Positions 672 through 55,906 of a DNA stretch of 64,000 nucleotides are shown here, one piece after another. Numbering within the stretch: the first letter of the stretch is position 1; each line of letters starts with the position of its first letter. A program made the translations under genes and the position numbers. The notes below the pieces were generated by a model that was given only the letters and a program-made list of their open reading frames with translations, searched no databases and was not told the origin of the DNA. The DNA is from Lathyrus oleraceus. Taxonomy: Eukaryota; Streptophyta; Magnoliopsida; Fabales; Fabaceae. The stretch spans positions 429,368,136 through 429,432,135 of the forward strand of contig NC_066581.1 of the NCBI RefSeq assembly GCF_024323335.1, written 5' to 3'.

Positions 672-1926
672 TGTAACACCTCAAAATTTGCCCTCCTCTT
701 CTTGGGACTAGTTTAGCATTTTACATTTCATGTTTTAGGACATTAGGCATTTGCATATTGCATATCATGTGGAAATAATGAAGTCATCCTCCAAAGTCTT
801 TTCAGAGATGGAGAAGTGGTGTGATTCAAGCCTAAGGGTTTTCTATGGATTGGTGATCAACCATCTGAGGGCTTGAGCTTCAATTAGGGTTTTCTTGGTC
901 CTTCAAAAGGTTGAGTGTTATCTTGTTGGCAAGGGTATATTACCATCATCATGGTTATGTCATTCTCAAGGGGTTCATTGTTCATGATCAGTTTCCTTTG
1001 GATTAGGGTTTTGACCTCTGGTCAACCCTAATCAATGTCATTCTTTCAACCAGGGATTTTCAAGGAGAAGAGGTATTCTATTGAGATGGAGATCACATGG
1101 TTATGTGGAGAAGCTTATATGAGTGAGGGTTCCATTTCTGAGCCAATTCCTCAAGTGGTTGAGGCTCAAGCTGATCAGAGCATGTCAAGGTCATCTGAGG
1201 ACCTATACAGTCGACTGTGTAAGAGTTGAGGGCTAGGAGGGGGAGAAATGAGTTTCAACATCTCATTCATGTTCAAAAGAGGTTAATTTGTCATTATAAA
1301 CATCTACCTTGAAGATTTTGAAGTCAGATCAAAAGTTTCCCAAAATGGAAAGTGACATGTAATTGAAAGTTTCCAAAAATGGCAAATTTTTGGACCACAT
1401 TCAACTTGACTTTCCAACATCGAAGAAGCTTCAAATGAAATTTTGTCCAGCATGAAAGTTGAAGATCTTTCTCTCCCATTTCCAAAAAGTCTAAGATCAT
1501 GAGCATCTGATGAATGATTGAGGAGTTATGATCAAATGATTGCCAAGGGTGCATGGAACTTCAAAATGCCATAACTTTTGTTTCAAAACTCCAAATGAAG
1601 TCACTCTTTTTGAATATTTCTTCTCATGACCTATATTTTCCAAATCCAACATTGCATTGCATGAAATTTACTCATATGATCATTTGGCCATGCATGAATA
1701 TTTTGGAGGGAAGATGCCTAATTTAAATTTGGTGAATCACATGGGTAAATTTCCACTTCCATTGAGTTTATGAGAGGATTTTAAGTGGCTTTGGATATTT
1801 GCATGAGAAAATTCACGTGGTGCATGGCCATACAAGTCCACTATTCATTTTTGGCAAGGCATTTCAATTTTCACTAATCTTAATTAACCAAGTTCAGTTG
1901 TGATTAGCATGGTGATTAGTGGACCA

Positions 1927-1933
1927 TATAAAA
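1927..1933 (+). promoter_or_regulatory. TATA box of A 5' LTR
   Basis: TATAAAA lies in the context ACCATATAAAAGAC about 1.25 kb into the LTR and is unchanged in the 3' LTR at 52237-52243. A pyrimidine-rich stretch follows within about 60 bp. This is the best candidate for the core promoter that starts the genomic RNA. Confidence 0.55.
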
Positions 1934-4591
1934 GACAAATCCTAACAGAATTGCTCATAATCACATTTTCTAGATCTAGAATTTGCTTTTCCCTCCAAAA
2001 TTCTCTCTCATTGGATTTCAAAAATTCTCCACACAAACACACATTTTCTTCATAGATCCATCATCCTCATGGAATTTGGAGCATGAATCAGTCATAATTC
2101 GTGGAAATTGAGCAAGATTTGGAGCTGTTCAAGCACATCAACACTTCAATGGAGGTTTGAAATTCAGCAAGATCCAGGGTGTGGCAAGCATCCATTCATG
2201 CATAAGCTTCCTAACAAGAGTAGAGGAGAAGATTTGGACACTTTTGAGGCCTTGAATCAAAGGAATAAACACACTGTTCTTCAAGAGGTTAGAAATTTGA
2301 ATCTCTTAATTCTTCAAATCAGTGCCATGTTTAGGTAGATCTCATCATGCTGAGAATTAAGATGGTTATAGAATTGAATTTGGTTGAGATTTGGTTGAGA
2401 TATGTTAGTTTTAAGTTTTGAACATGAAAGATGTTTTCACTCGATCCATGGAATATATGATGTTTTAGGCTTAGCTAACGTGATATCCTTGTTCTACGCG
2501 TCAAGATCTTTCCATTGATGTGCTTGGTTGTAAATTCTGCAAAAAAAATTATGAATGCTACTGTTGCGCCACCGTCTCAACGAGGAAGACGGTGGAAACC
2601 ACCGCCATGAACAGTACTGACCGCCGTCTGGTATGAACTTAGGGCAAGGCCTTAAACGGCGTCGTTTTGCTTCCAGCGTGTTTGCAACCTTGTACAAGGT
2701 TCGATTCCATGCGAAGGATTTTTGGGATTTATTTGTTTCAGCGCTTGTTTTTGGCCATACCCAGTTCGATTCCTCCATGATGCATTTCCATATTATTTTC
2801 ATATTATTCCCATGTTACATTTCATGTTTATTTCAAATATTTTCCTTAACTTCCAAAATTCATAACAAATGGAAAATTAATCCAAATCACTTCCAATTTT
2901 TTGCTACATGTTCATTTGGATGTCTTTTATTTTTTGATGTGGTTTTCCTGAATTTTGCATTTCTGGATTTTTGGTTGTGATTGATTATTTGAACATGTAT
3001 GCAAATGTGACATGTTGTACCAATTCTTTTGTGAAATGCTCATACATTGTCCAATTGCCATGAAATTTGATATGCTGATTCCTAACATGTTGATTGATTT
3101 TTGAGGCTTGGTTTGGCATTTTTAGCATTTTCCATTTCTGTTTGGGACACATGAATGTAAGGTGTGACAATGTGTGTCACACATTTTGATGTTGATCTTG
3201 TTCATTTTCATTTCCATGCCATTTGACATCTTCTGATTCTAATTTTTGGCATGAGGCTTGTGTTTAACATGTTGTATGCACATAAAAGTTTCCATGGTTA
3301 TTTGATTCATTTCTGTTTTAATATGGAATTTCTACTCTTAATGTCCAATTGTGAACACCATTGTGTGCCTTTGCCTTAGCATGACCATTAGATGGATTTG
3401 CCTTAGGATTTGGATTTGATCCTTTTTAGGACATGTTCTCCCTTGAATAAATGTGCTTCATGTTGAATATCACCTTCTGTTTTGACTTTTTGCTATGCCT
3501 TTGACCCTAGTCTTGGTACTAGTGGTTTGTACTCACCTTTTGAGCTTTGCATTTCAGGTTCAAGCTTCTAGTCCTAATGGTTGATGTTGATCTCATGGCT
3601 TGAGATGTAAATTTGCTTTGTCCACTAACCTTTGTTGTGTTGTAGGTCCCTTGGTGATGAACTCACTTGAGTTGATTGACTTGCATTGTGCATATTGGTT
3701 GTAACACTGTTGACTATTTGTTGGATTTGTCTGAATGTGAACATTGACTTGTTTGACTTTCTTACAGGTACTTTAGTCGCTTTAGCTCATTGCTTGAGTT
3801 GCTTTGCTTGTGGTTGGCATACCACCTAGGTAATCATTCTCTAACTCCATGTAGTCTGGAAGCCCTGTCGTTTCTTTTGGCAGGCGTTTGGTTGAAGTCC
3901 TCCTTAAGAGGCAATGTCTGTGATTGTTTACTTTTGTGCCATGTACTTCAAGTCCTCCTAAGTGAAGAGGCAATTGGCAGATAGAAGGGATTAGCAATCA
4001 ATCCCCTACTAATTGTTTGAGTCGTTCATTATGCTTGCACTACGTGCTGATGCTCTTGGACACGTCCCCTAGATCTTGTATAGAGTCAGTCAAGTGGAAT
4101 AGGGTCCCTCATTCTGGACCCCCACATTTTCATTGATTCAAGCTCACCCAGGCCCGGGTTAAGAGCTCTGAGGTCCAACCCTCATTACCTTTCATCTGCT
4201 CACCCTGACGGTCAATGTTAGTGGTTAAGAGCTTCATCATACCTTTCTAGTGTTGGCTTGTTTGTCGAGGTTGATATGACTCCTTGACTAAAGCCCATCC
4301 TTGTATGAGCCGTTTGTGTGCAGATAGAGTGTGATGATTGCTTTTGATGTTTATCTGCTTTTGCTTCTCATCTCCTTTCTGTAGGAGTCGTATGGTCAAC
4401 TTTCGAGGAAGTTGACCGTACGTAGAGATAGACTTGAGTTGACTCACTGCCTGTGTGAGTCAAACTCTTGTTAGAGATTTCAACATAGGGATCGTTTGCA
4501 TGACAACTTCTAGGCTCGAGTCGTAGTCTCCCTTTTAGTTGTTATCTCCCTAGTCTCTGGTTAGGAGAAAGTTTTTCCCTGTTAAGGAGAA

Positions 4592-4659
4592 CTACGTCGC
4601 CCTGATCCTCATTCCAGATGAGGTACGTAGGCAGGAGATCGTGTGAGATCTCTCTGGGC
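4592..4659 (+). other. Pseudoknot RNA module A-1 (predicted)
   Basis: The order is helix a, helix b, hairpin, a', hairpin, b'. Helix a: CTACGT 4592-4597 with ACGTAG 4625-4630. Helix b: GCCC 4599-4602 with GGGC 4656-4659. First hairpin: CCTCAT/ATGAGG 4607-4623, loop TCCAG. Second hairpin: GAGATC/GATCTC 4635-4652, loop GTGTGA. Single-stranded TGAT joins b to the first hairpin. The 3' LTR counterpart at 54903-54970 has lost pairs in a and b through single changes. Confidence 0.6.
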
Positions 4660-4875
4660 AACCTTTTTCTTTTTTGAGTGTGTTTTGCTTGACAACTATT
4701 AGGTCCGAGTTCCCGACTCCCTTTTAGTCTGTGTGTTCAACCTTTGTTTCTTTTGACGTCTCAGCGTCTTCTTGGTGTTTGTGTGATAGCTATTAGGCTC
4801 GAGTTCCAGACTCCCTTTTAGTTTGTCAGTTGGAGAACCTTTGGTGTTCGCTGGTTAGCGATTGTTTATTTGTTT

Positions 4876-5086
4876 GGAGTCGGATGTAAGCCCATTGATT
4901 GGCATTCAGTTTCCTTGTGCTGTTTGTATGGAGTTGGATGTAAGCCCATCGATTGGCATTCCGTTTCCTTGTTTGTTTTGTGGAGTCAGATATAAGCCCA
5001 ACTATTGGCATTCCGTTTCCATATTTGTTTTGTGGAGTCGGATATAAGCCCAACTATTGGCATTTCGTTTCCTTGTTGAGTTTCTT
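4876..5086 (+). repeat. Tandem repeat, 4 copies of 52-54 bp in the LTR
   Basis: Units starting GGAGT at 4876, 4930, 4982 and 5034 each hold GGAT(A/G)TAAGCCCA then ATTGGCATT. Two looser copies occur at the same place in the LTRs of B (about 18510-18610) and C (about 30175-30285), next to the pseudoknot modules. The function is unknown. Confidence 0.8.
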
Positions 5087-5139
5087 TTGACGTCTCAGCG
5101 TCTTTGTGTTGTGTTTTGTTTCGGCGTGCATTAGCCGAA

Positions 5140-5204
5140 CTACGGTAGCTCTGATTCTCATTCCAGATGAGATACGTGGCATAGGATGCGATATCCTACC
5201 GAGC
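5140..5204 (+). other. Pseudoknot RNA module A-2 (predicted, helix a damaged)
   Basis: Helix b pairs GCTC 5148-5151 with GAGC 5201-5204. First hairpin: TCTCAT/ATGAGA 5156-5172, loop TCCAG. Second hairpin: TAGGAT/ATCCTA 5182-5198, loop GCGAT. Helix a starts with CTACG at 5140, but its partner reads CGTGG because one A is missing. The 3' LTR counterpart at 55451-55516 keeps CGTAG. Confidence 0.5.
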
Positions 5205-5224
5205 CCGTTTCCCACTTCCCCGAA

Positions 5225-5291
5225 CTACGTCGACTCTGATGTTTGTTTCTGACAAACTACGTAGGCCCAGGATGCGATATCCTGCCGAGTC
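5225..5291 (+). other. Pseudoknot RNA module A-3 (predicted)
   Basis: Helix a: CTACGT 5225-5230 with ACGTAG 5259-5264. Helix b: GACTC 5232-5236 with GAGTC 5287-5291. First hairpin: GTTTGT/ACAAAC 5241-5257, loop TTCTG. Second hairpin: CAGGAT/ATCCTG 5268-5284, loop GCGAT. All four helices are perfect. The 3' LTR counterpart is 55537-55603. Confidence 0.65.
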
Positions 5292-5391
5292 CGCTTCCTC
5301 CGTTTTCTTCCACCTGTTTGTTATTCCATTGTGTGTGCATTCTTTGAGCAGTTATTCAGCAACCTTATTCTATTCTTTTGGAGCGTGGATC

Positions 5392-5439
5392 CCGTCGAGT
5401 ACGGCGGACGTGAGGGGTGCTAATACCTTCCCCTTGCGT
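5392..5439 (+). other. Conserved hairpin pair upstream of the primer-binding site (A)
   Basis: Hairpin one is CCGTCG-AGTA-CGGCGG (5392-5407) with one G.T pair. Hairpin two pairs ACG 5408-5410 with CGT 5437-5439 and AGGGG 5413-5417 with CCCCT 5430-5434. B has CCGTCG-AGTA-CGACGG and C has CCGTAG-AGTA-CTACGG at the same place, so the stem changes while the AGTA loop stays. Confidence 0.6.
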
Positions 5440-5596
5440 AACCGACTCCCGTACCTTGCAATCTCTGGTCGTAAGACCATTCCTTTCCCTTTTTCAGGTT
5501 TACTTCGAGCGTTTCCTTTCCCTCCTTTGGGATAAATAACGCACGGTGGCGGTTTGTGTACTTTTTCCCGCCGGTTGTTTTTCGCGTTGCGACAAC

Positions 5597-15426: not shown

Positions 15427-18393
15427 ATGTTAATCATAACAGAATTGCAAACCATAATCACATTTCTCAAGAGCTGTAACAAACTTTCACCAAAACCTCT
15501 CAAAAACTCTTCAATCTTCATCAAGCATTTTTCAACTTTTCTCCATCAAATCTCAATCAATTTGCACGATTCTTGATGGATTCATCTTCTCCAAGCCTCA
15601 ATCTCCAACTGTTTTGACAAATCAAAGCCGAAAACTCCAAGATCAAGGACTGTCATGCTTGTGCTCATCAATGGCATTTGGAGAGTTCTCGCATCTGGAT
15701 CAACCTCGAGCTAAGATAACTTCTCCATTCACCTTCCTATACTTGGATACACATCTGTTTCGGACAATTGGAGCAAGAAACCTCAAATTCGAGCACTGCC
15801 ATCTCCAAGGTACCAAAACTCGAATCTCACCATTTCTTGAATTGTGATATGCTTTTGGTAGTTTATTCATCATAGATCATTATGCTGTGCTTAGTTTTTA
15901 AAATGATTGAGTGTGGAGTGAGATATTTCGATTCAAAGTTTTGTTGTCATTTCTTTTTTCGCTCGATCTGTGAGATATAGTAGGAATTAAGAGAAATCAT
16001 TAGCATATTCTTGATTTACATTGAGAGACGGTGAGAACGGTGTGCCATTTGTTGATTTTGGTTGAGGTTTGAGCCGAACCGTTGCTGGACATGGAGGCGC
16101 GAAGAACACGCGATGAAGATGGAAAATTCTGGGAAAAAGCTGTGTTTGATCCGTCCGATTCCTTGTTTTTTTTTGAATTTCTGTTTGCCGCCTGTTTGAG
16201 CCAACCAGAAGCTGCCACTGAATTAATGCCATGCGCTGTCGTTTTGATCCCTGGGCACGGCAATTACGAGATTGCCATTCAAGCCTTAATAAATCAATAA
16301 TCCACTTAAATAATTATTCAATAATTAACAAAACTTTAGAAAATCCAAACAAATCCATTTTTAATCCAAAATTAGTGAGACTTTTTTTGTTGGATTCATA
16401 ATTTTGTCTAGAATTTTATAGGTATGATATCATAAGTTGTGCTTGGAGGATTTTTGGATTGGCCTACTGATTTTGTTCATGTGCTCATTTTTTGCATGTC
16501 TTGCCAAAACCATCATGAAATGCTCATACTTGTAAAGAAATGGATGAAAATATTTGTGCTTATTCTAGACATGTTGATGGTGATTTTCATGTAGAGTTTG
16601 TGATTTTTGGATACTTGGTGTTGGAGATATGATTTTTTGAATCTAGGTGTGACAATTTGTGTCACACCAAGCTAGGTCAAATTTCTGATTTTATTTGCAT
16701 GGCCTAGGATTGTTGAATTGCTGCAATTTTTTGCATGAATGATTATTGATATGTCAAGATAACATGTGATTTTTTCTGGAATTATTGGTTTCATTTTCAA
16801 ATTGATTGATAATTTTCTTCTCTGTGTGCTCATTTTGCAACATTGTGTGACACATGTTTGTATTTTGTTTGTGAAATTCTCATAGTGTATTGGATGAAGA
16901 TGAAATTTGGTGTAAGCATTGTAGACACATTATAGGACATCATGGTTTTGATCCCATTCATTTCTTAGTTGTTGTCACTGTTTTATGAATTATGGAAGTT
17001 GATGCTTATGTGGATGCCTTGAATTGGTTTGTATAATTGTGTCTGGACTTCTTGATTTTCATTGACCTACTTTCTTTTGTCCAATTGAGCTGAAAATTGA
17101 CATGCTATACATTGAATATGTCCTGTTTAGGTGTGAATTTTTGTGGAATTAATTGAATTGATTTGGTATGCTTTTGAGTGAAATAGTTCTGTTTGGTCTT
17201 TGGAAGTTGCAAATTGCATGATTGATGTTAAATTGTGCATGGAATGATAATGGTGATTGATATGAGCATGGGACCAATTGCATTTGCTTTTGATTTGTTT
17301 GAATATGATTTTGGATGAGTTGCACTTGCTGTTTAGAATTTTTATCCCATTTGGACCCTAGGCTTGGCCTAGTGGTCTAGTTTCTCACATTTGGTTTGGA
17401 TTTTCAGGTTAAAAGTGCAAAAGGCTTAAGGAGAGAAATGGAAATTGAAAATTGAATTTGTTTGATGTTGTCCACTAACATGACTTTGTTTTGTAGGGAT
17501 TGATGCTTGAGCTTGAGCTTATAGCTTGCACTTGTGTGCATTAACTTGTGTTGTCTGTATAGATTAACATTTGTTGTTTATTGTTGGTTTGTCTGAGTAC
17601 TGATGATACTTGATTGATTTCAGGTACATTTAGTCGCTTACAGTTCTTTAAGAACTTGCTTGCTGCTGCTTGGTTTTTTAACCAATTGAGGTAGGACTTC
17701 TATTCTTCATGTAGTCTGGAAGACCTGGCCTGTTACTTGGCCAGGCAACTGTCTGAAGTCCTCCTTAAGAGGCGATGTTTGTGGTTGTTTACATTTGTGC
17801 CCAAGCAGGTAAAGACCTCTATGAGGCAATTGGCGGATCATAGGGATATGCAATCTATCCCCCGCTATTCTGTTGAGTCGTCCCTCTGCTCACACGGCTG
17901 TGTGTTGATGCATTGGGACACAAACCCAAGATCTTGTGCTGTTGCACAATCGAGTCAGAGTCTTGAGCGTAGAAGGGTCCCTCCATTCTGGACCCACGCT
18001 CCTTTGTCCGAAGCTCTCCCTGGTCAGGGATAAGAGCTGTGAAGTCTAATCTTCACTCACCTTTCATCTGCTTCACCTTAGCCCCGCAATGGCAAGGTTA
18101 AGAGCGAATACTACCCATGTACAGATGACTTGCTTCGGCAGTCAAACCCATTGTTTGAGCCTCACTTGACTGGTTATAGTGTGTGCTATGTGAATATTTG
18201 CTTGAAATGCTTGTTTTGATCTGTTGATGCTTGCATGCTTGTTTTCCTGGATAGGATTAGCTTGCAGTTGTGCAAGTAGGTAGAAACCACAACATAGGGC
18301 AATGATGCATGACAACACTAGGCTCGAGTACAACTCCCTGGTAGTGTGTCTCCCCTTGGTTTCTGGCTAGATTTTATTTCCCTTTCAGGGGAA

Positions 18394-18462
18394 CTACATC
18401 GCCCTGATCCTCGTTCCAGACGAGGTATGTAGGCAGGAGACCGTGCGAGGTCTTCTCCGGGC
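18394..18462 (+). other. Pseudoknot RNA module B-1 (predicted)
   Basis: Helix a: CTACAT 18394-18399 with ATGTAG 18427-18432, a compensated change from CTACGT/ACGTAG in A. Helix b: GCCC 18401-18404 with GGGC 18459-18462. First hairpin: CCTCGT/ACGAGG 18409-18425, loop TCCAG. Second hairpin: AGACC/GGTCT 18438-18453, loop GTGCGA, extended by one pair in the 3' LTR copy (49249-49316). Confidence 0.65.
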
Positions 18463-18657
18463 ACTTTTTTTCTTTTTTACGTGTGTTTGCTTGTTATCTT
18501 CTTGTGTGTCAGGATATGGACGTAAGCCCAGCGATTGGCTGTACGTATCTTGATTGTGTTTGTTTGGTTCGGAAGCCGATGTAAGTCCAGCGATTGGCAT
18601 TCAGGTTCCAGGTTTGCCTGTGGGTGTGTGTGTCTTGTTTGGCGTGCGTGAGCCGAA

Positions 18658-18724
18658 CTACGGCAGCTCTGATTCTCGTTCCAGACGAGATACGTAGGCA
18701 TAGGATGCGATGTCCTATCGAGCT
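18658..18724 (+). other. Pseudoknot RNA module B-2 (predicted)
   Basis: Helix a: CTACG 18658-18662 with CGTAG 18693-18697. Helix b: AGCTC 18665-18669 with GAGCT 18720-18724. First hairpin: TCTCGT/ACGAGA 18674-18690, loop TCCAG. Second hairpin: TAGGAT/GTCCTA 18701-18717 with one G.T, loop GCGAT. The 3' LTR copy is 49512-49578. Confidence 0.65.
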
Positions 18725-18810
18725 CTCTTCCTCTTAACCCCACCTGTGTTGTCTTCGGTATGTGTGTGTGTGATGTTTTAGCAACCTTTTCTTTTCCTAG
18801 AGCGTGGATC

Positions 18811-18857
18811 CCGTCGAGTACGACGGACGTGAGGGGTGCTAATACCTTTCCCTTGCG
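18811..18857 (+). other. Conserved hairpin pair upstream of the primer-binding site (B)
   Basis: The first hairpin, CCGTCG-AGTA-CGACGG (18811-18826), is perfect where A has a G.T pair. A second hairpin like A's follows (AGGGGT... with ...CCCTT). Confidence 0.55.
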
Positions 18858-19017
18858 TAACCGACTCCCTTACCCTTTCTCTTTGGTCGCGAGACCATGC
18901 TTTTTCCAGGTTTCTCTGAGCGTTTCCTTTCCCTATCTTGGGATAAATAACGCGCAGTGGCGGCTCTATGTTGTGTTTTGTTTTAGCCCGCCGGTTGTTT
19001 TTCGCGGATGCGACAGC

Positions 19018-25110: not shown

Positions 25111-28100
25111 GATACTTTTTATACATTCATCATGAAAAAAATAGCATAGCATGTTGCATAGAAAAATAATAAAGCGCGTAGCATTTCCATAATTATGGAG
25201 TGTAGCACCTCAGATTTGCACCTATCATTATACATACCATCTCATATTAGGTCATAGCATATCATGATCATTTGCATTGTCCCCAGTTGCCTCAAGTGCA
25301 AGCAAGCAAGAAATTAGGTCAAACTGATCAGGAGATCAGTCAACCAATCAAGCAAGGTTGTTTCTCAAGGGATCAAAGCCTTAGGGTTTGTCCAACAAGT
25401 TCTCATGTCTTGGAGTATCATTTGAAGGGTTCAAGTCAAAGGTTGGAGCCTCATTTGTCATCAGTCGATGCACAGACAAGCCAAAACCCTAGAAAGTCAA
25501 AGTTGGTCAACTGTGATTGATTCTTTGGATTTGGTGGATGGAAATGGTTTGAGGGAGTTTATTCATGTCCTAATAAGCCTCATCTATCATGTCAAACCTC
25601 ATCATGGAAGAAAATCAAGCCAATCAGAAAATTTTCCAGAAATAGCAAGTGGACCTGTAATTTCAACTGCCAAAAATGGAAACTTCTTGATCCTCAACTT
25701 ACATCATGATACAAGCTCCAAATGAATTTTTGCCCAACATGAAAGTTGAATATCTTGTTCTCCCATTTTCAAAAAGTCCAAGAACATCAAAATCCCATGT
25801 GTGGTTGTCAAGATATGATCAAATCATTTTCACAAAAATCTTGAACTTCAACTGAGCATATCTCCCAAACCATAAGTCCAAATTTGGTGGGGTTTTTTTC
25901 CTACAAACCACATTTTTCATCCTCTTTCCAAAAATATAAATTTCACTCATCAAAACCCTACCATTCAAAATGGCATTTTTGGACCTTTTTCATTTAAAAT
26001 CAAGGTTTGACCAAAGTTTGACTTTTTGAGTTTTTGATTTTTTCTCATTTTTACCAATTGGAAAATGTTCTAAATCACATTTGTGACTTGTCTCAAGCCC
26101 TAAATCATCATCATGCCACCATTTTTCCACCATTTTGGACAAAAATTCAAAGTTGGCAATTTGTGCATTTTGCTTCATACAAGTAAAACAAAGTTGGCAA
26201 TTAAAGAGCAAATAGCAAACAGCAAATTTGTTAGTCATTTTGCAGCCAATGCCAAGCCCAGCTCGTGTAGAATACACCTCCTTTGTTCACTTATGCCAAT
26301 TAGCAAAATTTGCAATTTGCTCCATTTAAGCTAAAACAACTTAGCACATGTTTAAGTGAGGATTAACAGGTCATATTTAAGCTTCCTTCTGTCCAAACAA
26401 ACCCTAGTTTTTACAGCCTACACACAGAAAACACACTCTCACTCTCTTCTTGCAAATTGGCAATTGGAAAAATTCTGAGCAAACCATCACAAACCACAAG
26501 AAACCCTTGTTTCCTCCATCAATTGAACAACATTTTGGGCCTATTTGAATCACTACTTCACATCTGGAAAGCTTCATCTCCCTGCTGCTATTTCAAACCC
26601 CTTCCAATGGCAAAGTTCGAGTCAGTTGGGTTCCAGCTAATTTGAGCAAAGGACCTTCAAGAATCCATCAGCATTGACCTTAATCTACCTCTGTTTGCAT
26701 TTGAATCCACCGATACACCACTGCACATCAGTTTTTCTCCAAACAAGTGAGTTTTTTCGATTACCTTATTTTGACAAATAATGATATGCTTTAAGTAGGC
26801 TTTGCTTCACTGATTCTAAAGAGCTATAGTTTGCTTGAATTGATGAAATATTGCATGAGATATTTGAAATTTGAGTTTTGTGTACAAGTGAAGTCTTGCT
26901 CGATTTGCCATGTTTGATTTGATTCTGGGAAGTTTGATGTTGTATTCTTGTTATTTGATGCTTAAATGATGCTGTGACCATGCTTAATTTGAACTTCTGG
27001 GTGACTTGATTTTGTTCACGTTGGAATGATAATGATGGGTACCCTGTTTATCTATGCTGCTGTTTAAATCCATGCCCAGAATTTCCTGTGGTCGATGCTT
27101 GTCTTGTTGTGATTGATGTTGCATGAGGAGGAGTTTGCATGGCCGTTTTGATATTGGTTGTTTTGATCGTGCATAATTGATGAATATGTATGATGAATGT
27201 TGCTATTTTCTAAAACCCTAGCTGTGGCACGAGATTCCCAGAACATGAAGTTGGATTGGCTGTGGTTGTTAATTGTTCATGCGTGTACTGTTTCATTAAA
27301 AATGGGCCAATCACAACATTTCCAGCCTTTGCCTGATGCGCAGTCGTTTTACTTAGTGATGCGCCATATTACCAGTTTGCCATTCCTTTGACTTATGTTG
27401 ACCAATTGCCTTGCCTTTTGTTCATGCTTGCTACATTATTTCATCCAACTTCAACAATTATTTTCTAATTCATTTTTCATCCAAAAATTATGATTCTTTT
27501 TCCATGATGTTCATGATTGAGTCTATTATTTAATTATGAATTTTAATTATTTTTCCATTGGTTGGTTTTTTAATTGATAATTGTTTTCCCAACATGTATG
27601 CCAAAATGATACATTGTGCCATTCCTCTTGTGAAATTGTCATGTTGCATCCAATGAGCCTGAATTTTTTTGTGGTGAAACTAGACACATTGACCTTCATT
27701 TCCATATAAAGTTTGTGCATTTATCATTTGTGGTTTGAGAGTTATGATTTTTTGAAGTCATGTGTTACATTTGAGGTCACACCATGATCATGCATTTTCC
27801 TTAATTTTGTTCACATGCTTCCCTACATCCAATTGACTCCAAATTTTGCATGAATGATCCCTTGTATGTCTAATTGATGTATGAATTTTCTTGGAATTAA
27901 TCTTGCTGTTTTCCATTTATGTGAGAATTTTCTTCCATGCTTGGTCATCTGTTGACTTTTTGTGCTATGCCTTGCCAAATCCTTTGGGAAATTCTCATAA
28001 CATATCACATGATCATGAAATTTCATATGTGAAAACTAGACATGTCAAGCTTTGCATTGGTGTTAATCTCATTCATTTCTCTTCTGTTTTCAAATTGATA

Positions 28101-29431
28101 TGATTTTTTGAAGTTGACCCATGCTTGTTGACTTTCACCATGCTTACTTGAATTTGGTTTGACTTCATGATTTTACTTGACTGCCTTCCTCTCATCCAAA
28201 TGCCATGAAATTTTACATGCTTACCATGTTAGATGTTAGGATTGAGTGTGATTTATTTGTTGATTTTTGAAAATGTTTGGGTTGACTTTTGATGCAAGTC
28301 ATTCTGTTGACTTTTGTGTGCTTTCCTTTGCCTTACTTTGACTTCAAATGTTCATGAAATGATCATAATGCATGATATGGTTGTGGGCCCAATTGTGATT
28401 GCTTTCTAATTGGTTGACTTTGACTTTGAGTTGACTTTTCCTTGCTGCCTTGACTTTTTCTTTCATCTTTGACCCTAGGCTAGCCCTAGTGGTCCTTTGG
28501 ACTTATGTTGAGTTCATCTGTTTCAGGTTGAGCATAGTGCTTCCAAGATCATACCAATTTGATTGATGTTTGTTTGTCTATATTGTGCTAACCTTTTATT
28601 TTGTAGGTGACTCATGTAACTTGAGTTTTGCTTTGCACAGTTGACCTTCTGTGGTTGACTGTTTATCCATTTCCTTTGGTTTTAACTGTGGAACTGTGAA
28701 CTGATTGTTTTGACTTTTTCAGGTACTTTAGTTGCTTAAGTTCTCTGAACTTGCTTGCTTTGCTATTTTTAGCATTTGCTTTTGAGGTATAAATACTTCT
28801 TCTTCATGTAGTCTGGAGACCCGGTCTGTTATTTGACCGGGCAAACTGTCTGAAGTCCTCCTTAAGAGGCAATGCCTGTGTATGTTTACTTTGTCCCTGT
28901 ACAGAGTCAAAGACCTCCTAAGTGAAGAGGCAATTGGTGGAAGGTAGGGATATGCAGTCTATCCCCCACTATTCAGTGTGTCTTCTGTTTTGCTCACACT
29001 ACTGTGTTGATGCAATTCAGATAAAAACCCAAGATCTTGTGCAATTGCACAGCTGAGTCAGTTTTAAATGTGTAGAAGGGTTCCCACTTTCTGAACCCAC
29101 ACATTCTTGTCAAGTGCTCTCCCTGGCCAGGGATAGAAGCAATGAGGCACACCCCTCATCTCCTATTCATTCGCTTCACCTTAGCCTCTCAATGGCAAGG
29201 TTAAGAGCGCACTGACCCCATTCCAGTTGGCCCTAGTGCCTAACCTTTTGCTTGAGCCTCTTGTATGCATATAGAGTGTGCTTTGTGTGATTGCCTGTTT
29301 GCTTTGCCTCTTTAGGTTTAGCTTAGACTTGCCCTCGTGCAAGGTAGGTTGCGCTTGACTTGCTTCCTGTGCAAGTCAAGTCTGTGTGGCTTGCTTCCTA
29401 TGTGAGCCATACTTAGAACTGTTCGGCCGAA

Positions 29432-29499
29432 CTACGGCAACTCTGATTCTCACGTTCAGGTGAGATACGTAGGCACGAGACGCGATGTCTTGCCGAGTT
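29432..29499 (+). other. Pseudoknot RNA module C-1 (predicted)
   Basis: Helix a: CTACG 29432-29436 with CGTAG 29468-29472. Helix b: AACTC 29439-29443 with GAGTT 29495-29499. First hairpin: TCTCAC/GTGAGA 29448-29465, loop GTTCAG. Second hairpin: CGAGAC/GTCTTG 29476-29492 with one G.T, loop GCGAT. The 3' LTR copy is 42271-42338. Confidence 0.65.
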
Positions 29500-30032: not shown

Positions 30033-30326
30033 CCCTTTCTTTCTTTTGTGTGTGTTGTTTGACCTTTGCTAAGCTCGAGTCCCCGTACTCCTTAGCATTT
30101 GCTGTCTGTTTGCTTGTGTTTGACAGCTATAGGCTGAGTCCCCGACTCCCTATCTATCTGTTGTGTTGTTTAGGTTCGGATGTCAATGTAAGTCCAGTGA
30201 TTGGCATTTGGGCTCCACGTTTGCCTCTTTGCGTGTGTTTTAGGTTCGGATGCTGACATAAGTCCAGTGATTGGCAGTCGGGCTCCATGTTTGCCTGTGT
30301 TTTGTTTGCGTGCGTGTCAGCCTGAG

Positions 30327-30397
30327 CTACGAATGCTCTGATTCTTCTCTCGTCCGAGAAGATACGTATGCATAGGATGCGATATCCTAGCGAGCAT
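30327..30397 (+). other. Pseudoknot RNA module C-4 (predicted)
   Basis: Helix b is the longest seen: ATGCTC 30333-30338 with GAGCAT 30392-30397. First hairpin: TCTTCTC/GAGAAGA 30343-30362, loop TCGTCC. Second hairpin: TAGGAT/ATCCTA 30373-30389. Helix a is reduced to TACG/CGTA (30328-30331 with 30365-30368). The 3' LTR copy is 43165-43235. Confidence 0.6.
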
Positions 30398-30418
30398 GTG
30401 TCGTCTCCCCAGTCCGAA

Positions 30419-30485
30419 CTACTTCGACTCTGATGTCTATGCCTGATAGACTAAGTAGGCCCAGGATGCGACATCCTGCCGAGTC
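30419..30485 (+). other. Pseudoknot RNA module C-5 (predicted)
   Basis: Helix a: CTACTT 30419-30424 with AAGTAG 30453-30458, a third compensated version of this helix. Helix b: GACTC 30426-30430 with GAGTC 30481-30485. First hairpin: GTCTAT/ATAGAC 30435-30451, loop GCCTG. Second hairpin: CAGGAT/ATCCTG 30462-30478. The 3' LTR copy is 43257-43323. Confidence 0.7.
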
Positions 30486-30576
30486 AGTTTCAGTCAGTCT
30501 CTTTTGTCTCTTTCGGCCAGTGTGTGTGTTTGAGCAGCGTTTTAGCAACCATTTTCCTTCCTTTTGTGCGTGGATC

Positions 30577-30625
30577 CCGTAGAGTACTACGGATGCGTAG
30601 GGTGCCTAACACCTTCCCTTCGCAT
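30577..30625 (+). other. Conserved hairpin pair upstream of the primer-binding site (C)
   Basis: The first hairpin is CCGTAG-AGTA-CTACGG (30577-30592). The second pairs ATGCG 30593-30597 with CGCAT 30621-30625 and AGGG 30599-30602 with CCCT 30616-30619. Both stems differ from A and B at paired positions on both sides. Confidence 0.6.
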
Positions 30626-30781
30626 AACTGACTCCCGAACCCATCCTCTTTGGTCGCGAGACCATGTTCTTTCCTAGGTTTACTTCGAGCGTTTCCTTTC
30701 CCTCTTTTGGGATAAATAACGCACGGTGGCGGCTCTGTTGTTTCTTTCTTTTCCCGCCGGTTTTTCGCGCGACGCGACAGC

Positions 30782-30799: not shown

Positions 30800-31918
30800 T
30801 AAAGAGAAGTTGACCTCTGCTGGTCCATCTTCCCTGAGCGAGTCTCTCCTAGCGCTCTCTAGGTTAGGGTTTTGGTTGCTATTTGCTGTTATTTATTGCA
30901 TTCATTGTATATATGTACATTTATTGATTGCATTAATTGTGTGCATTACTGTTTGCATTTATTCATATTCATCTGCTGGCTGTGCTGTGTTTCTCTGTTG
31001 GGGTGGGATTACTCGAGGTAAAAGGCCCACTACCCAGGCTTGAGTGTACACATAGGTGTTAGAGTGGATAGTCATGAGGCTTGCGTGGTATGTTGCTACG
31101 TTAAGTCGTTCATGAGACCCACATTCTAGACGAGGTTTCTTTTGGATATATTCTGTCCTATGGGTGTTCCATAACGACAGATATTCCTTTAGAAATCGTC
31201 GACTCTGGTGGCCATTTCCCGAGAACTCAGTCGAGGCCTCTCCTCCGAGACGTGATTATGTTAGCTCTGGTGGGCGCATTCTCGCTGCTCAATCCGAGGA
31301 CCCCGAGACTGGGAACTTGCTCTAGGATATCCTGTTGAGGGGAGTCAGCAGAGGTCTTTTATCCCGTAATAATGCCAAACCTTCAGTGGTAAACGTATTA
31401 TTCTCGGCTGAAGGGCCGAAACTGACAAACTTCTGTTCTTAGAACCTACAAGTGAGGGGCGGGCTAAATTCAGGAAACCTTAACCTCCAACCAACCCGGT
31501 TTTCTGAAGCAGAGTTTTAGTCTTATATTATATTCCTCACATGGGTTCAGATGCCAGTTGATCAGATTGACTTTGGGTTTCAGATGGTTGTGATCAGAGT
31601 TCAAGCCGAAGTTCTGACCCTGTGCCTTGAGACGCACAGCTTGACCGGTCATGTTCGCATCATTTGCATCATAGCATGTTTATTTTCCAAAAAAATAGTA
31701 ATGCATGAAAATGAAAAAAGTTAACTCGCATACACATATCCTTTTCAGGATCATTCATGATAAAATAGCATCCGCATCATACACGTATCATGCACATATC
31801 ATCCTTGCATTGCAGACATGTTTGGGGACAAGACTTCTCACTCCGGTTCCTTTGTTGAGACAGGATAACTGATCGAAGACCACACCGGTATTCAACCAGG
31901 CTCAATCAACAGAGAAGT
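30800..31918 (+). other. Untranslated leader of C
   Basis: About 1.1 kb of sequence with no supported frame lies between the primer-binding site and gag. It differs from the A/B leader and has no ORF1. Confidence 0.6.
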
Positions 31919-36812: not shown

Positions 36813-37667
36813 TTTTCGGTCGATTATTCATTTAACAACCTACAAACCGGTTATGGATAATCTTCCATGCGAGGTTATTATCTACGTTCTGACGGCTATA
36901 GATAATATACTTCATGCGCTCTTTGGTCAATCTTTTGATTGTTATCACCAGTCGAGTAAGATTCGTATTCCTTGTGGAATCGAATGTTCATCCTTTTACA
37001 AGTTTGCCTTCGCTCTCTTCAGGATGTTTTCGGTCGATTATTCATTTAACAACCTACAAACCGGTTATGGATAATCTTCCATGCGAGGTTATTATCTACG
37101 TTCTGACGGCTATAGATAATATACTTCATGCGCTCTTTGGTCAATCTTTTGATTGTTATCACCAGTCGAGTAAGATTCGTATTCCTTGTGGAATCGAATG
37201 TTCATCCTTTAACAAGTTTGCCTTCGCTCTCTTCAGGATGTTTTCGGTCGTTTATCCATCTAACAACCTACAAACCGGTTATGGATAATCTTCCATGCGA
37301 GGTTATTATCTACGTTCTGACGGCTATAGATAATATATCTCATGCACTCTTTGGTCAATCCTTCGATTGTTATCACCAGTAGAGTAAGATTCGTATTCCC
37401 TGTGGAATCGGATGTTCATCCTTTAACAAGTTTGCCTTTGCTCTCTTCAGGATGTTTTCGGTCGTTTATCCATTTAACAACCTACAACCCGGTTATGGAT
37501 AATCTTCCATGCGAGGTCATTATCTACGTTCTGACGGCTATAGATAATATGTCTCATGCGCTCTTGGGTCGAAGTCGTCCTCCCCAGCCGAGTAAGATTC
37601 GTATTTCTTGTGGAATCGAATGTCCATCCTTTAACAAGATCGCTTTTCTAGCCCTCTTCAGGATGTT
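36813..37667 (+). repeat. Tandem repeat, 4 copies of 214 bp in C 3' UTR
   Basis: TTTTCGGTCG begins at 36813, 37027, 37241 and 37455, exactly 214 bp apart each time. The fourth copy diverges towards its end. The long open frames here, up to 215 codons, come from the repeat having a period not divisible by three and few stops; they are not genes. Confidence 0.92.
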
Positions 37668-41000: not shown

Positions 41001-43617
41001 ACTTCATGATTTTACTTGACTGCCTTCCTCTCATCCAAATGCCATGAAATTTTACATGCTTACCATGTTAGATGTTAGGATTGAGTGTGATTTATTTGTT
41101 GATTTTTGAAAATGTTTGGGTTGACTTTTGATGCAAGTCATTCTGTTGACTTTTGTGTGCTTTCCTTTGCCTTACTTTGACTTCAAATGTTCATGAAATG
41201 ATCATAATGCATGATATGGTTGTGGGCCCAATTGTGATTGCTTTCTAATTGGTTGACTTTGACTTTGAGTTGACTTTTCCTTGCTGCCTTGACTTTTTCT
41301 TTCATCTTTGACCCTAGGCTAGCCCTAGTGGTCCTTTGGACTTATGTTGAGTTCATCTGTTTCAGGTTGAGCATAGTGCTTCCAAGATCATACCAATTTG
41401 ATTGATGTTTGTTTGTCTATATTGTGCTAACCTTTTATTTTGTAGGTGACTCATGTAACTTGAGTTTTGCTTTGCACAGTTGACCTTCTGTGGTTGACTG
41501 TTTATCCATTTCCTTTGGTTTTAACTGTGGAACTGTGAACTGATTGTTTTGACTTTTTCAGGTACTTTAGTTGCTTAAGTTCTCTGAACTTGCTTGCTTT
41601 GCTATTTTTAGCATTTGCTTTTGAGGTATAAATACTTCTTCTTCATGTAGTCTGGAGACCCGGTCTGTTATTTGACCGGGCAAACTGTCTGAAGTCCTCC
41701 TTAAGAGGCAATGCCTGTGTATGTTTACTTTGTCCCTGTACAGAGTCAAAGACCTCCTAAGTGAAGAGGCAATTGGTGGAAGGTAGGGATATGCAGTCTA
41801 TCCCCCACTATTCAGTGTGTCTTCTGTTTTGCTCACACTACTGTGTTGATGCAATTCAGATAAAAACCCAAGATCTTGTGCAATTGCACAGCTGAGTCAG
41901 TTTTAAATGTGTAGAAGGGTTCCCACTTTCTGAACCCACACATTCTTGTCAAGTGCTCTCCCTGGCCAGGGATAGAAGCAATGAGGCACACCCCTCATCT
42001 CCTATTCATTCGCTTCACCTTAGCCTCTCAATGGCAAGGTTAAGAGCGCACTGACCCCATTCCAGTTGGCCCTAGTGCCTAACCTTTTGCTTGAGCCTCT
42101 TGTATGCATATAGAGTGTGCTTTGTGTGATTGCCTGTTTGCTTTGCCTCTTTAGGTTTAGCTTAGACTTGCCCTCGTGCAAGGTAGGTTGCGCTTGACTT
42201 GCTTCCTGTGCAAGTCAAGTCTGTGTGGCTTGCTTCCTATGTGAGCCATACTTAGAACTGTTCGGCCGAACTACGGCAACTCTGATTCTCACGTTCAGGT
42301 GAGATACGTAGGCACGAGACGCGATGTCTTGCCGAGTTTTGACTAACAACTAACAGCTAATCCTTGCTTGCTTTCGCCCTCGTTGCGATCCTTTCTCTCG
42401 CCCTCGTTGCGATCGAGACTTTCCCTTTCTCTTGCCCTAGTTGCAATCGAGTCCTTTTTCCCAGCCGGCCGAACTACGGCAACTCTGATTCTCACGTTCA
42501 GATGAGATACGTAGGCACGAGACGCGATGTCTTGCCGAGTTTGACTAACCACTAACATCTAATTTCTTTTCTCTCACCCCTGTTGTGATTGAGATATCCC
42601 TTTCTCTTGCCCTAGTTGCAATCGAGACTTTGCTTTTTCCTGTGTCTGTTCAGGATAGGTTGGCCCTTGTGCCATTTAGCTAGAAACCTTAACTTAGGGT
42701 TGACTTTGCATGACAACATCTAGGCTCGAGTCGTAGTCTCCCTAGTGTTGTGTCTCCCTCTGTTATCTGGTTAGGCTAGATCCTTGTCCCTGCGTAGGGG
42801 AACTACATCGCCCTGATCTTCATACCAGATGAAGTATGTAGGCAGGAGATTGAGCTGATCTCTCCGGGCGCCCTTTCTTTCTTTTGTGTGTGTTGTTTGA
42901 CCTTTGCTAAGCTCGAGTCCCCGTACTCCTTAGCATTTGCTGTCTGTTTGCTTGTGTTTGACAGCTATAGGCTGAGTCCCCGACTCCCTATCTATCTGTT
43001 GTGTTGTTTAGGTTCGGATGTCAATGTAAGTCCAGTGATTGGCATTTGGGCTCCACGTTTGCCTCTTTGCGTGTGTTTTAGGTTCGGATGCTGACATAAG
43101 TCCAGTGATTGGCAGTCGGGCTCCATGTTTGCCTGTGTTTTGTTTGCGTGCGTGTCAGCCTGAGCTACGAATGCTCTGATTCTTCTCTCGTCCGAGAAGA
43201 TACGTATGCATAGGATGCGATATCCTAGCGAGCATGTGTCGTCTCCCCAGTCCGAACTACTTCGACTCTGATGTCTATGCCTGATAGACTAAGTAGGCCC
43301 AGGATGCGACATCCTGCCGAGTCAGTTTCAGTCAGTCTCTTTTGTCTCTTTCGGCCAGTGTGTGTGTTTGAGCAGCGTTTTAGCAACCATTTTCCTTCCT
43401 TTTGTGCGTGGATCCCGTAGAGTACTACGGATGCGTAGGGTGCCTAACACCTTCCCTTCGCATAACCGACTCCCGAACCCATCCTCTTTGGTCGCGAGAC
43501 CATGTTCTTTCCTAGGTTTACTTCGAGCGTTTCCTTTCCCTCTTTTGGGATAAATAACGCACGGTGGCGGCTCTGTTGTTTCTTTCTTTTCCCGCCGGTT
43601 TTTCGCGCGACGCGACA
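38041..43617 (+). repeat. 3' LTR of element C
   Basis: A near copy of 25201-30779. The differences I noticed are mostly single-base changes, plus one lost base in a T run and one in a C run. All five pseudoknot modules and the hairpin pair are unchanged. Confidence 0.95.
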
Positions 43618-48000: not shown

Positions 48001-49869
48001 GAATTAATTGAATTGATTTGGTATGCATTTGAGTGAAATAGTTCTGTTTGGTCTTTGGAAGTTGCAAATTGCATGATTGATGTTAAATTGTGCATGGAAT
48101 GATAATGGTGATTGATATGAGCATGTGACCAATTGCATTTGCTTTTGATTTGTTTGAATATGATTTTGGATGAGTTGCACTTGCTGTTTAGAATTTTTAT
48201 CCCATTTGGACCCTAGGCTTGGCCTAGTGGTCTAGTTTCTCACATTTGGTTTGGATTTTCAGGTTAAAAGTGCAAAAGGCTTAAGGAGAGAAATGGAAAT
48301 TGAAAATTGAATTTGTTTGATGTTGTCCACTAACATGACTTTGTTTTGTAGGGATTGATGCTTGAGCTTGAGCTTATAGCTTGCACTTGTGTGCATTAAC
48401 TTGTGTTGTCTGTATAGATTAACATTTGTTGTTTATTGTTGGTTTGTCTGAGTACTGATGATACTTGATTGATTTCAGGTACATTTAGTCGCTTACAGTT
48501 CTTTAAGAACTTGCTTGCTGCTGCTTGGTTTTTTAACCAATTGAGGTAGGACTTCTATTCTTCATGTAGTCTGGAAGACCTGGCCTGTTACTTGGCCAGG
48601 CAACTGTCTGAAGTCCTCCTTAAGAGGCGATGTTTGTGGTTGTTTACATTTGTGCCCAAGCAGGTAAAGACCTCTATGAGGCAATTGGCGGATCATAGGG
48701 ATATGCAATCTATCCCCCGCTATTCTGTTGAGTCGTCCCTCTGCTCACACGGCTGTGTGTTGATGCATTGGGACACAAACCCAAGATCTTGTGCTGTTGC
48801 ACAATCGAGTCAGAGTCTTGAGCGTAGAAGGGTCCCTCCATTCTGGACCCACGCTCCTTTGTCTGAAGCTCTCCTTGGTCAGGGATAAGAGCTGTGAAGT
48901 CTAATCTTCACTCACCTTTCATCTGCTTCACCTTAGCCCCGCAATGGCAAGGTTAAGAGCGAATACTACCCATGTACAGATGACTTGCTTCGGCAGTCAA
49001 ACCCATTGTTTGAGCCTCACTTGACTGGTTATAGTGTGTGCTATGTGAATATTTGCTTGAAATGCTTGTTTTGATCTGTTGATGCTTGCATGCTTGTTTT
49101 CCTGGATAGGATTAGCTTGCAGTTGTGCAAGTAGGTAGAAACCACAACATAGGGCAATGATGCATGACAACACTAGGCTCGAGTACAGCTCCCTGGTAGT
49201 GTGTCTCCCCTTGGTTTCTGGCTAGATTTTCTTTCCCTTTCAGGGGAACTACATCGCCCTGATCCTCGTTCCAGACGAGGTATGTAGGCAGGAGACCGTG
49301 CGAGGTCTCTCCGGGCACTTTTTTTCTTTTTTGCGTGTGTTTGCTTGTTATCTTCTTGTGTGTCAGGATATGGACGTAAGCCCAGCGATTGGCTGTACGT
49401 ATCCTGATTGTGTTTGTTTGGTTCGGAAGCCGATGTAAGTCCAGCGATTGGCATTCGGGTTCCAGGTTTGCCTGTGGGTGTGTGTGTCTTGTTTGGCGTG
49501 CGTGAGCCGAACTACGGCAGCTCTGATTCTCGTTCCAGACGAGATACGTAGGCATAGGATGCGATGTCCTATCGAGCTCTCTTCCTCTTAACCCCACTTG
49601 TGTTGTCTTCGGTGTGTGTGTGTGTGATGTTTTAGCAACCTTTTCTTTTCTTAGAGCGTGGATCCCGTCGAGTACGACGGACGTGAGGGGTGCTAATACC
49701 TTCCCCTTGCGTAACCGACTCCCTTACCCTTTCTCTTTGGTCGCGAGACCATGCTTTTTCCAGGTTTCTCTGAGCGTTTCCTTTCCCTATCTTGGGATAA
49801 ATAACGCGCAGTGGCGGCTCTGTGTTGTGTTTTGTTTTAGCCCGCCGGTTGTTTTTCGCGGATGCGACA
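45033..49869 (+). repeat. 3' LTR of element B
   Basis: It is 4,837 bp, the same length as the 5' LTR, and collinear with it. Pseudoknot modules lie at 49249-49316 and 49512-49578. It is followed by GTTCA, the target duplication of B. Confidence 0.95.
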
Positions 49870-53900: not shown

Positions 53901-55906
53901 ATCTCATGGCTTGAGATGCAAATTTGGTTTGTCCACTAACCTTTGTTGTGTTGTAGGTCCCTTGGTGATGAACTCACTTGAGTTGATTGACTTGCATTGT
54001 GCATATTGGTTGTAACACTGTTGACTATTTGTTGGATTTGTCTGAATGTGAACATTGACTTGTTTGACTTTCTTACAGGTACTTTAGTCGCTTTAGCTCA
54101 TTGCTTGAGTTTCTTTGCTTGTGTTTGGCATACCACCTAGGTAATCATTCTCTAACTCCATGTAGTCTGGAAGCCCTGTCGTTTCTTTTGGCAGGCGTTT
54201 GGCTGAAGTCCTCCTTAAGAGGCAATGTCTGTGATTGTTTACTTTTGTGCCATGTACTTCAAGTCCTCCTAAGTGAAGAGGCAATTGGTAGATAGAAGGG
54301 ATTAACAATCAATCCCCTGCTAATCGTTTGAGTCGTTCATTATGCTCGCACTACGTGATGATGCTCTTGGACACGTCCCCCAGATCTTGTATAAAGTCAG
54401 TCAAGTGGAATAGGGTCCCTCATTATGGACCCCCACGTTTTCATTGATTCAAGCTCACCCAGGCCCGGGTTAAGAGCTATGAGGTCCAACCCTCATTACC
54501 TTTCATCTGCTCACCCTGACGGTCAATGTCAGTGGTTAAGAGCTTCATCATACCTTTCCAGTGTTGGCTTGTTTGTCGAGGTTGATATGACCCCTTGACT
54601 AAAGCCCAACCTTGTATGAGCCGTTTGTGTGCATATAGAGTGTGATGATTGCTTTTGATGTTTATCTGCTTTTGCTTCTCATCTCCTTTCTGTAGGAGTC
54701 GTATGATCAACTTTCGAGGAAGTTGACCGTACGTAGAGACATACTTGAGTTGACTCACTGCCTGTGTGAGTCAAACTCTTGTTAGAGACTTCAACATAGG
54801 GATCGTTTGCATGACAACTTCTAGGCTCGAGTCGTAGTCTCCCTTTTAGTTGTTATCTCCCTAGTCTCTGGTTAGGAGAAAGTTTTTCCCTGTTAAGGGG
54901 AACTACGTCACCCTGATCCTCATTCCAGATGAGGTACGCAGGCAGGAGATCGTGCGAGATCTCTCCGGGCAACCTTTTTCTTTTTTGAGTGTGTTTTGCT
55001 TGACAACTATTAGGTCCGAGTTCCCGACTCCCTTTTAGTCTGTGTGTTTAACCTTTATTTCTTTTGACGTCTCAGCATCTTCTTGGTGTTTGTGTGACAG
55101 CTATTAGGCTCGAGTTCCAGACTCCCTTTTAGTTTGTCAGTTGGAGAACCTTTGGTGTTCGCTGGTTAGCGATTGTTTATTTGTTTGGAGTCGGATGTAA
55201 GCCCATTGATTGGCATTCAGTTTTCTTGTGCTGTTTGTGTGGAGTTGGATGTAAGCCCATCGATTGGCATTCCGTTTCCTTGTTTGTTTTGTGGAGTCGG
55301 ATATAAGCCCAGCTATTGGCATTCCGTTTCCTTGTTTGTTTTGTGGAGTCGGATATAAGCCCAACTATTGGCATTCCGTTTCCTTGTTGATTTTCTTTTG
55401 ACGTCTCAGCGTCTTTGTGTTGTGTTTTGTTTCGGCGTGCGTTAGCCGAACTACGGTAGCTCTGATTCTTATTCCATATGAGATACGTAGGCATAGGATG
55501 CGATATCCTAGCGAGCCCGTTTCCCACTTCCCCGAACTACGTCGACTCTGATGTTTGTTTCTGACAAACTACGTAGGCCTAGGATGCGATATCCTGCCGA
55601 GTCCGCTTCCTCCGTTTTCTTCCACCTGTTTGTTATTCCATTGTGTGTGCATTCTTTGAGCAGTTATTCAGCAACCTTATTCTATTCTTTTGGAGCGTGG
55701 ATCTCGTCGAGTACGGCGGACGTGAGGGGTGCTAATACCTTCCCTTTGCGTAACCGACTCCCGTACCTTGCAATCTCTGGTCGTAAGACCATTCCTTTCC
55801 CTTTTTCAGGTTTACTTCGAGCGTTTCCTTTCCCTCCTTTGGGATAAATAACACACGGTGGAGGTTTGTGTGTTTTTTCCCGCCGGTTGTTTTTCGCGTT
55901 GCGACA
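50982..55906 (+). repeat. 3' LTR of element A
   Basis: Collinear with 672-5594 with scattered substitutions and a few indels. The TATAAAA box is at 52237. Pseudoknot modules are at 54903-54970 (two pairs lost), 55451-55516 (first hairpin damaged) and 55537-55603. GGGAG follows at 55907-55911. Confidence 0.95.

Follow-up and report, generated by a model that had tools for sequence, protein, structure and literature searches.

Hammerhead ribozymes occur in plant LTR elements, among them the retrozymes, which are small and non-autonomous, and HDV-like ribozymes use a catalytic C in J4/2. LTR elements make up much of large plant genomes, and to our knowledge few cis-acting RNA signals are known on the transcripts of plant LTR elements. 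The HDV-like fold has P1, P1.1 and P4 in one stack and P2 on P3 in the other, with cleavage at the first base of P1 and a core formed from L3 and J4/2; as reported for one construct, a P1-P2 spacer of 0 nt gave no cleavage and one of 1 nt gave little (PMC4908430). HDV-like ribozymes are also described from retroelements (PMC4035085). Structured RNAs of another kind are the pseudoknotted RNA transport element of MusD and the RNA transport element of IAP (PMC12786077). Tat/Ogre elements are described as carrying gag and pol with an extra RNase H (aRH), and Ogre RNA as partly spliced (PMC6317226).

Here we describe an RNA module that recurs in the LTRs of three nested LTR retrotransposons (C within B within A) in the window, the whole stretch of 64,000 nt of Lathyrus oleraceus DNA that was analysed, and which we read as an apparently new family of cis-acting RNA in the Tat/Ogre-type LTRs of this genome. 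The LTR pairs of A, B and C are offset by about 50,311, 30,854 and 12,839 bases, respectively, and the LTRs are about 5 kb long. A PBS-like TGGCGACTCTGCTGGGGA stands at 5597, directly after the 5' copy of LTR A, and the same sequence adjoins the 3' end of all three 5' LTRs. We take a PBS of this type to be a marker of Ogre/Tat elements; judged by LTR length and this PBS, the window elements would be Tat/Ogre elements of the Ty3 type. A Pfam search of 10 open frames (frames broken by stops were not read through) recognised Retrotrans_gag in element C (31859-33436) as the sole domain, the other nine frames having no match, and a tRNA-gene search gave no matches. The elements also contain a 68-base tandem array in nine registers and a 214-base array (window 49858-50673 and 36813-37540); the 68-base unit has related sequence at 37700.

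The earlier note on this DNA had claimed ten versions of the module, three in A, two in B and five in C; all are present in the sequence, and every arm pair quoted there can be read in it. The parts follow one another in the order a-b-UGAU-h1-a'-h2-b' (helices a and b, hairpins h1 and h2). Every version stands in both LTRs of its element, and the modules occupy the 3' part of each of the three nested LTRs. The features are as follows, R1 being a covariance model that was built on 12 rows and covers the nested helices:

690..5596, + strand: LTR A, 5' copy, with breaks in 5'/3' identity near 690 and 5596
about 51000-55905: LTR A, 3' copy
4592..4659, + strand: module A1; helix a 4592-4597/4625-4630, helix b 4599-4602/4656-4659, TGAT 4603-4606, h1 4607-4612/4618-4623, h2 4635-4640/4647-4652
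5140..5204, + strand: module A2; this 5' copy is short by one a' base, which the 3' LTR copy has
5225..5291, + strand: module A3; helix a 5225-5230/5259-5264, helix b 5232-5236/5287-5291, TGAT 5237-5240, h1 5241-5246/5252-5257, h2 5268-5273/5279-5284
5381..5455, + strand: hairpin-rich conserved block (GGTGCTAATACCTTCCCC) 3' of the last A module, repeat family D9
18394..18462, + strand: module B1
18658..18724, + strand: module B2
29432..29499, + strand: module C1
29635..29702, + strand: module C2
29965..30031, + strand: module C3
30327..30397, + strand: module C4; helix b ATGCTC/GAGCAT, helix a with its first pair unformed or in a bulged register
30419..30485, + strand: module C5; helix a CTACTT/AAGTAG
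54898..55608, + strand: 3' LTR copies of A1-A3 (R1 matches 54898-54976, 55446-55522, 55532-55608)
49244..49583, + strand: 3' LTR copies of B1 and B2 (R1 matches 49244-49322, 49507-49583)
42266..43328, + strand: 3' LTR copies of C1-C5 (R1 matches 42266-42343, 42469-42546, 42798-42875, 43160-43239, 43252-43328)

The C4 subtype (30322-30401), with TATGC after a', has changed A to G before a and G to T after a' jointly, and the bulged register would give back two G-C pairs; the columns of this joint change, 5-45, take places 18 and 11 among the 2,701 column pairs scored for the two sets introduced below. The GCGA loop of hairpin 2, previously described as nearly fixed, is so in the shorter-loop type only: loops of the GCCC type read GTGTGA, GTGCGA or much like GAGCTG, and those of other families differ again.

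Within the window, R1 finds all 20 module copies and nothing else (E up to 10, default filters), and all 20 matches fall inside LTRs. A descriptor free of letters has nine matches on the plus strand and one on the minus strand (35051). Every plus-strand match is a module, which accounts for 9 of the 20 copies and 5 of the ten versions; the remaining ones fail the strict stems of the descriptor. Dinucleotide shuffles, read on both strands, gave one place in 8 of 30 cases and none in 22. An alignment of 12 modules (nine 5' versions and three from the 3' LTR of A, with the 30322 version, C4, omitted) has 95.6% of its 271 cells paired and 54 cells changed on both sides, compared with a shuffled mean of 18.1 and at most 6 in slid controls. 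One of five measures on these 12 modules, the number of further pair types, was not above the shuffles (22, mean 25.3). Nested folding energies of single modules are no more than mildly better than those of shuffled sequences (z -0.14 to -2.76).

Relatives were sought in the 3.8 Gb assembly of the same genome, and loci were fetched by short patterns comprising a downstream anchor (60,919 places) and several module types. Three exact patterns that differ at the a' letter match 14,313, 26,215 and 17,842 places, about 58,000 in total, and many of the module copies are clonal. Partial patterns gave two further families (6,921 and 19,916 places), and the 5' half of the module is also present in 19 of 20 fetched places of the second. 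Altogether, 129 distinct module copies were gathered from several LTR families, which share the module and have very different LTR sequences; the number of copies per LTR is two to five in the window and one in some families, for the stretch read. Helix b takes the new forms GCCT/AGGC, GATTC/GAGTC and TGCTC/GAGCA, as well as GTTT/AAAC in the family with 19,916 pattern matches, and hairpin 1 has many further forms. The letters at the junctions vary little: GAR precedes a in 127 of the 129 distinct modules, a C lies directly 5' of b' in 120, and the linker is UGA in 126. Because three of the fetching patterns carried GAACTAC, the high conservation of these letters is partly built in; three other patterns lacked them. 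Most copies were found by a covariance model, so the set is biased toward paired copies; from one set of 46 matches, 35 were used, four identical copies and seven weak ones (E 3e-4 to 0.098) being omitted. Outside this genome, the exact patterns had no match in viral or genome contig collections, neither of which is a plant collection.

We then scored covariation with shared ancestry allowed for. MAFFT alignments were built from sequence only, columns with more than half gaps were removed, and all 2,701 column pairs at least four apart were scored by a G-test with average-product correction; the null was a simulation on a FastTree tree in which the observed substitutions were moved to random columns. 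In a set of 90 Ogre-type modules the nine best of the 2,701 pairs are all predicted pairs and represent all four helices, and the same is true of the eight best in a larger set of 128 of the 129 modules (L083 omitted). Single-pair E-values from our R-scape-like script are modest (below 0.05 for one pair among 90 modules and two among 128), and the claim therefore rests on the ranking and on the double changes per helix. Compensatory double changes on single branches number 6 in a, 6 in b (a mean of 5.3 over ten other ancestral resolutions), 12 in h1 and 10 in h2 for the 90 modules, where two nulls, each simulated 300 times, average 0.24-0.48 and reach at most 2-4. For the larger set the numbers are 7, 10, 14 and 15, with null means of 0.72-1.57 and maxima of 3-6. 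The double changes thus lie above all 300 simulations in every helix, which supports the idea of a selected RNA fold; the trees were made from the same 77 columns as were tested, which can favour double changes on the same branch.

Paired cells amount to 87% in a, 94% in b, 99% in h1 and 97% in h2 among the 90 modules. In this set h1 and h2 beat every simulation, b (0.936) is not quite beyond the null maxima of 0.958 and 0.940, and a (0.871) lies within the null range (maxima 0.897 and 0.971). In the larger set, the paired share is above every simulation for all four helices. The numbers of pair types are mostly not above the tree nulls, with h2 exceeding them in places. Support for b, h1 and h2 is strong: they form a junction kept by compensatory change.

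As a drift control, 30 modules were each paired with their counterpart in the other LTR of what is presumed to be one element. The ten pairs of the window are certain; twenty come from loci matched by distance, among which L005/L006 (three pairs, 4.7 kb apart) is doubtful and L007/L008 (four pairs, 27 kb) less certain. One pair has a deletion and another a row-shifting insertion, the shifted pair being left out. Counted by hand, the 11 substitutions at paired positions comprise 6 broken pairs, 5 wobbles and 0 double compensations (3 broken and 4 wobbles without L005/L006). The numbers are small; drift brought no compensation here, and change between replicating lineages did. Since the module is kept by matched mutations while the element multiplies, it very likely does a job for the element.

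As a' lies between b and b', the pseudoknot depends on helix a. Covariation had been claimed for all four helices, and all do exceed the null, but the both-side changes of helix a fall at one pair only, 10-41, where five of six events could each be explained by two separate CpG-type changes and the sixth is G-C to U-A. Genome-wide, an A at 10 is matched by U at 41 in 26,215 places and faces a C in 2,873, and a U at 10 is matched by A at 41 in 17,842 places and faces a C in 152; these counts are clonal and thus show that paired forms prevail, not how often they have arisen. Pair 8-43 has a changed 5' base in 270 places genome-wide, and the 100 copies listed comprise 57 G.U, 41 mismatched and two U.G pairs, with no new Watson-Crick pair. 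Among the 12 aligned modules, five of the six helix a pairs are invariant or vary only by pair loss. With both-side changes at one pair and no new Watson-Crick pair at 8-43 among the copies listed, helix a is mainly conserved in sequence. A greedy parse of the 129 modules pairs a with a' over 5-6 bp in 78 and over 7-8 bp in a further 21.

Without helix a, the fold would be a three-way junction of b, h1 and h2. It is conceivable, though rather unlikely, that this plain junction is what is selected and that no pseudoknot forms, CTACG/CGTAG being kept on other grounds such as protein binding to these letters. The nested minimum-energy folds of A3, B1 and C5 (3 of the ten) consist of b, h1 and h2 without a, a point limited by the other seven modules, whose energy folds differ or match the junction only in part. 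A plain junction would also account for the mostly unvarying pairs of helix a, for the behaviour of 8-43 among the 100 copies listed, and for a paired share of helix a inside the null range (90 modules). It does not account for pair 10-41 existing as G-C, A-U and U-A in very large numbers with few mismatches, for the complementarity of a and a' in most of the 129 modules, or for double changes in helix a that exceed all simulations. The pseudoknot of the earlier note has weaker support than b, h1 and h2 have. We consider the module fold to be probably a pseudoknot, and the complementarity of a and a' would most simply close it around the b/h1/h2 junction.

Provided that helix a forms, the module has the strand order P1-P2-P3-P1'-P4-P2' of HDV-like ribozymes, and it shares with them conserved letters in the junctions and occurrence in retroelements (PMC4908430, PMC4035085). 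The two differ in several parts of the core. HDV-like ribozymes stack P2 on P3, where the module has a 4-nt UGA(N) linker (126 of 129), and they have P1.1 pairs, for which the module lacks two free G: GG is present in 105 of 129, but its first G already closes helix a; a single P1.1 pair may form. YC is found in the hairpin-1 loop as well in 84 of 129, and the TATGC subtype has no GG. J1/2 is 0 nt in 24 of 129 and 1 nt in 40 (in a parse that extends helices greedily), and J4/2, in which the C 5' of b' lies, is only 2-3 nt. Unlike HDV-like ribozymes, the modules have a conserved GAR upstream of P1, and their P1 begins with C. Rfam at gathering scores returned one snoRNA only for the whole window, away from the modules; at E up to 10 the LTR end showed a single weak snoRNA hit, located on the opposite strand (4552-4407), and eleven loci gave seven weak matches, none on a module. 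The snoRNA of the window is the plant snoR71 (RF00097, 50.7 bits) at 61530-61636 on the minus strand. Membership among HDV-like ribozymes thus fails on the P2/P3 linker, on P1.1 and on the Rfam match, and the module appears to be at most a pseudoknot of HDV order, not an HDV-like ribozyme. The impression that the module had not been described agrees with the lack of an Rfam match and of any description in the open-licence papers searched. Retrozymes are small, whereas the LTRs here are about 5 kb. They likewise carry a small functional RNA motif in plant retrotransposon LTRs (PMC7761336), but theirs is a hammerhead fold and not a pseudoknotted junction.

A self-cleaving ribozyme with the HDV strand order and a different core, in which GAR would serve as substrate strand and the active site would include UGA and the C preceding b', is unlikely. 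The shared strand order, the gathering of conserved letters at the junctions and the HDV-like ribozymes known from retroelements (PMC4035085) would fit such an RNA; the 4 nt between b and h1, the missing pair of free G for P1.1 and the lack of an Rfam ribozyme match would not. Moreover, helix a starts with C in 129 of 129 modules (partly built in by the fetching patterns), conservation runs on upstream of the would-be cleavage site, and with two to five such sites in an LTR the genomic RNA would be cut close to its ends. Similarly improbable is a new catalytic RNA class with its own core (GAR, UGA in J2/3, C before P2') that processes the RNA ends of giant LTR elements; if true, a single plant genome would contain tens of thousands of copies of a self-cleaving or otherwise catalytic class. 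A new ribozyme is possible, and less likely than a protein-binding mark.

Such a mark on the full-length RNA, serving export or packaging, is the role that we tentatively propose, with somewhat less than even confidence. A polyA-like signal lies 3' of the modules, which are therefore expected close to the 3' end of full-length RNA and, should transcription begin 5' of them, also in its leader at the 5' end; it is because the modules are expected in full-length RNA that a protein-binding cis element suggests itself. The Gag of the element, or a host protein, might bind the folded core, the bound core would mark unspliced full-length RNA for export or packaging, and the two to five copies per window LTR would raise the dose. 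Near-invariant junction letters (GAR, UGA, C) combined with variable b, h1 and h2 fit recognition of a folded core. Nothing in the data separates export from packaging. The RNA transport elements of MusD (MTE) and IAP (RTE) are likewise structured RNAs, pseudoknotted in the MTE, in LTR-element transcripts (PMC12786077), and since Ogre RNA is partly spliced, a need for an RNA transport element is plausible. MusD and IAP differ in belonging to another element group with no known sequence link to the module, and export is here only a candidate role.

An exoribonuclease-blocking or IRES-like pseudoknot in a long, structured 5' leader is a doubtful alternative to the protein-binding mark: it would suit a compact pseudoknot in tandem copies in the window LTRs, placed upstream of gag if transcription starts upstream; nothing specific speaks against it beyond the fact that the modules match no Rfam family. 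A DNA-level feature, be it inverted repeats or factor sites of the TACGTA type, is very improbable, and so is conservation by chance among copies that are young and clonal, because, despite the TACGT/ACGTA half-sites, the five of six CpG-type changes in helix a and the many clonal copies, b, h1 and h2 change into many unrelated letter pairs, the U-A form of helix a loses the ACGT core yet has 17,842 exact matches, and double changes exceed the tree-based null in every helix. The motif would be a new Rfam family and offers a concrete handle on how LTR elements export, package or process their RNA, as well as a good way to see how widely the HDV-type strand order occurs beyond known ribozymes.

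Identity among the LTRs of A, B and C reaches 0.75 in the 60-column window that holds the first module, stands at 0.67/0.53 around the second, and falls to 0-0.32 between modules. Other conserved stretches lie just 5' of the first module (0.45-0.65), at the LTR end and, in C coordinates, at 28,805-29,200 and 25,541-25,830. The block downstream of the last A module is also found at 18800-18874 and 30566-30640, with hairpins CCGT..ACGG versus CCGTAG..CTACGG whose changes match by eye. The order of module, block (GGTGCTAAYACCTTCCC) and AATAAA-like signal recurs in L071, L049, L113 and, with a variant block, L090, whose LTRs differ, and a PBS follows the AATAAA-like signal in L071 and L113. Within the LTR, a copy of the PBS start (GGTGGCGACTC) stands just after the AATAAA-like signal at about 1838 in L071, 1796 in L049 and 3977 in L113; the PBS itself follows some 70-90 bases further on in L071 and L113.

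No transcription start could be located in A, B or C, and the TATAAATA of C at 28788 was rejected as a TATA box, as it is not conserved in A or B. L113 has a TATA-like CTATAAATAG 736 bases upstream of its module, which was not confirmed as a TATA box, its family neighbours L114-L117 giving no alignment there. L091, which adjoins L071, has a TATA-like box upstream of the module. L113 itself was considered as a short non-autonomous element and is read instead as a partial LTR followed by a longer one.

Further blocks in these LTRs may be structured. A second motif, GGATGTAAGYCCA..GATTGGCATTC (repeat families D8/D12), occurs at window 4915-5083, 18556-18619 and 30163-30296 and in the 3' LTR copies, with a spacing of 52 or 70 bases; by eye it folds as CCA/TGG within ATG/CAT and is perhaps another structured RNA module. 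A conserved hairpin block stands at window 3849-3920, 17709-17780 and 28806-28880, and its arms show, by eye, matched differences between A, B and C (CCTGGCC/GGCCAGG, CCCGGTC/GACCGGG and CCTGTC/GGCAGG). Finally, the LTR of L071, which is of another family, contains at 700-1200 three copies of a different repeat whose arm changes match by eye, CGTGGT/ACCGCG versus CATGGT/ACCATG.
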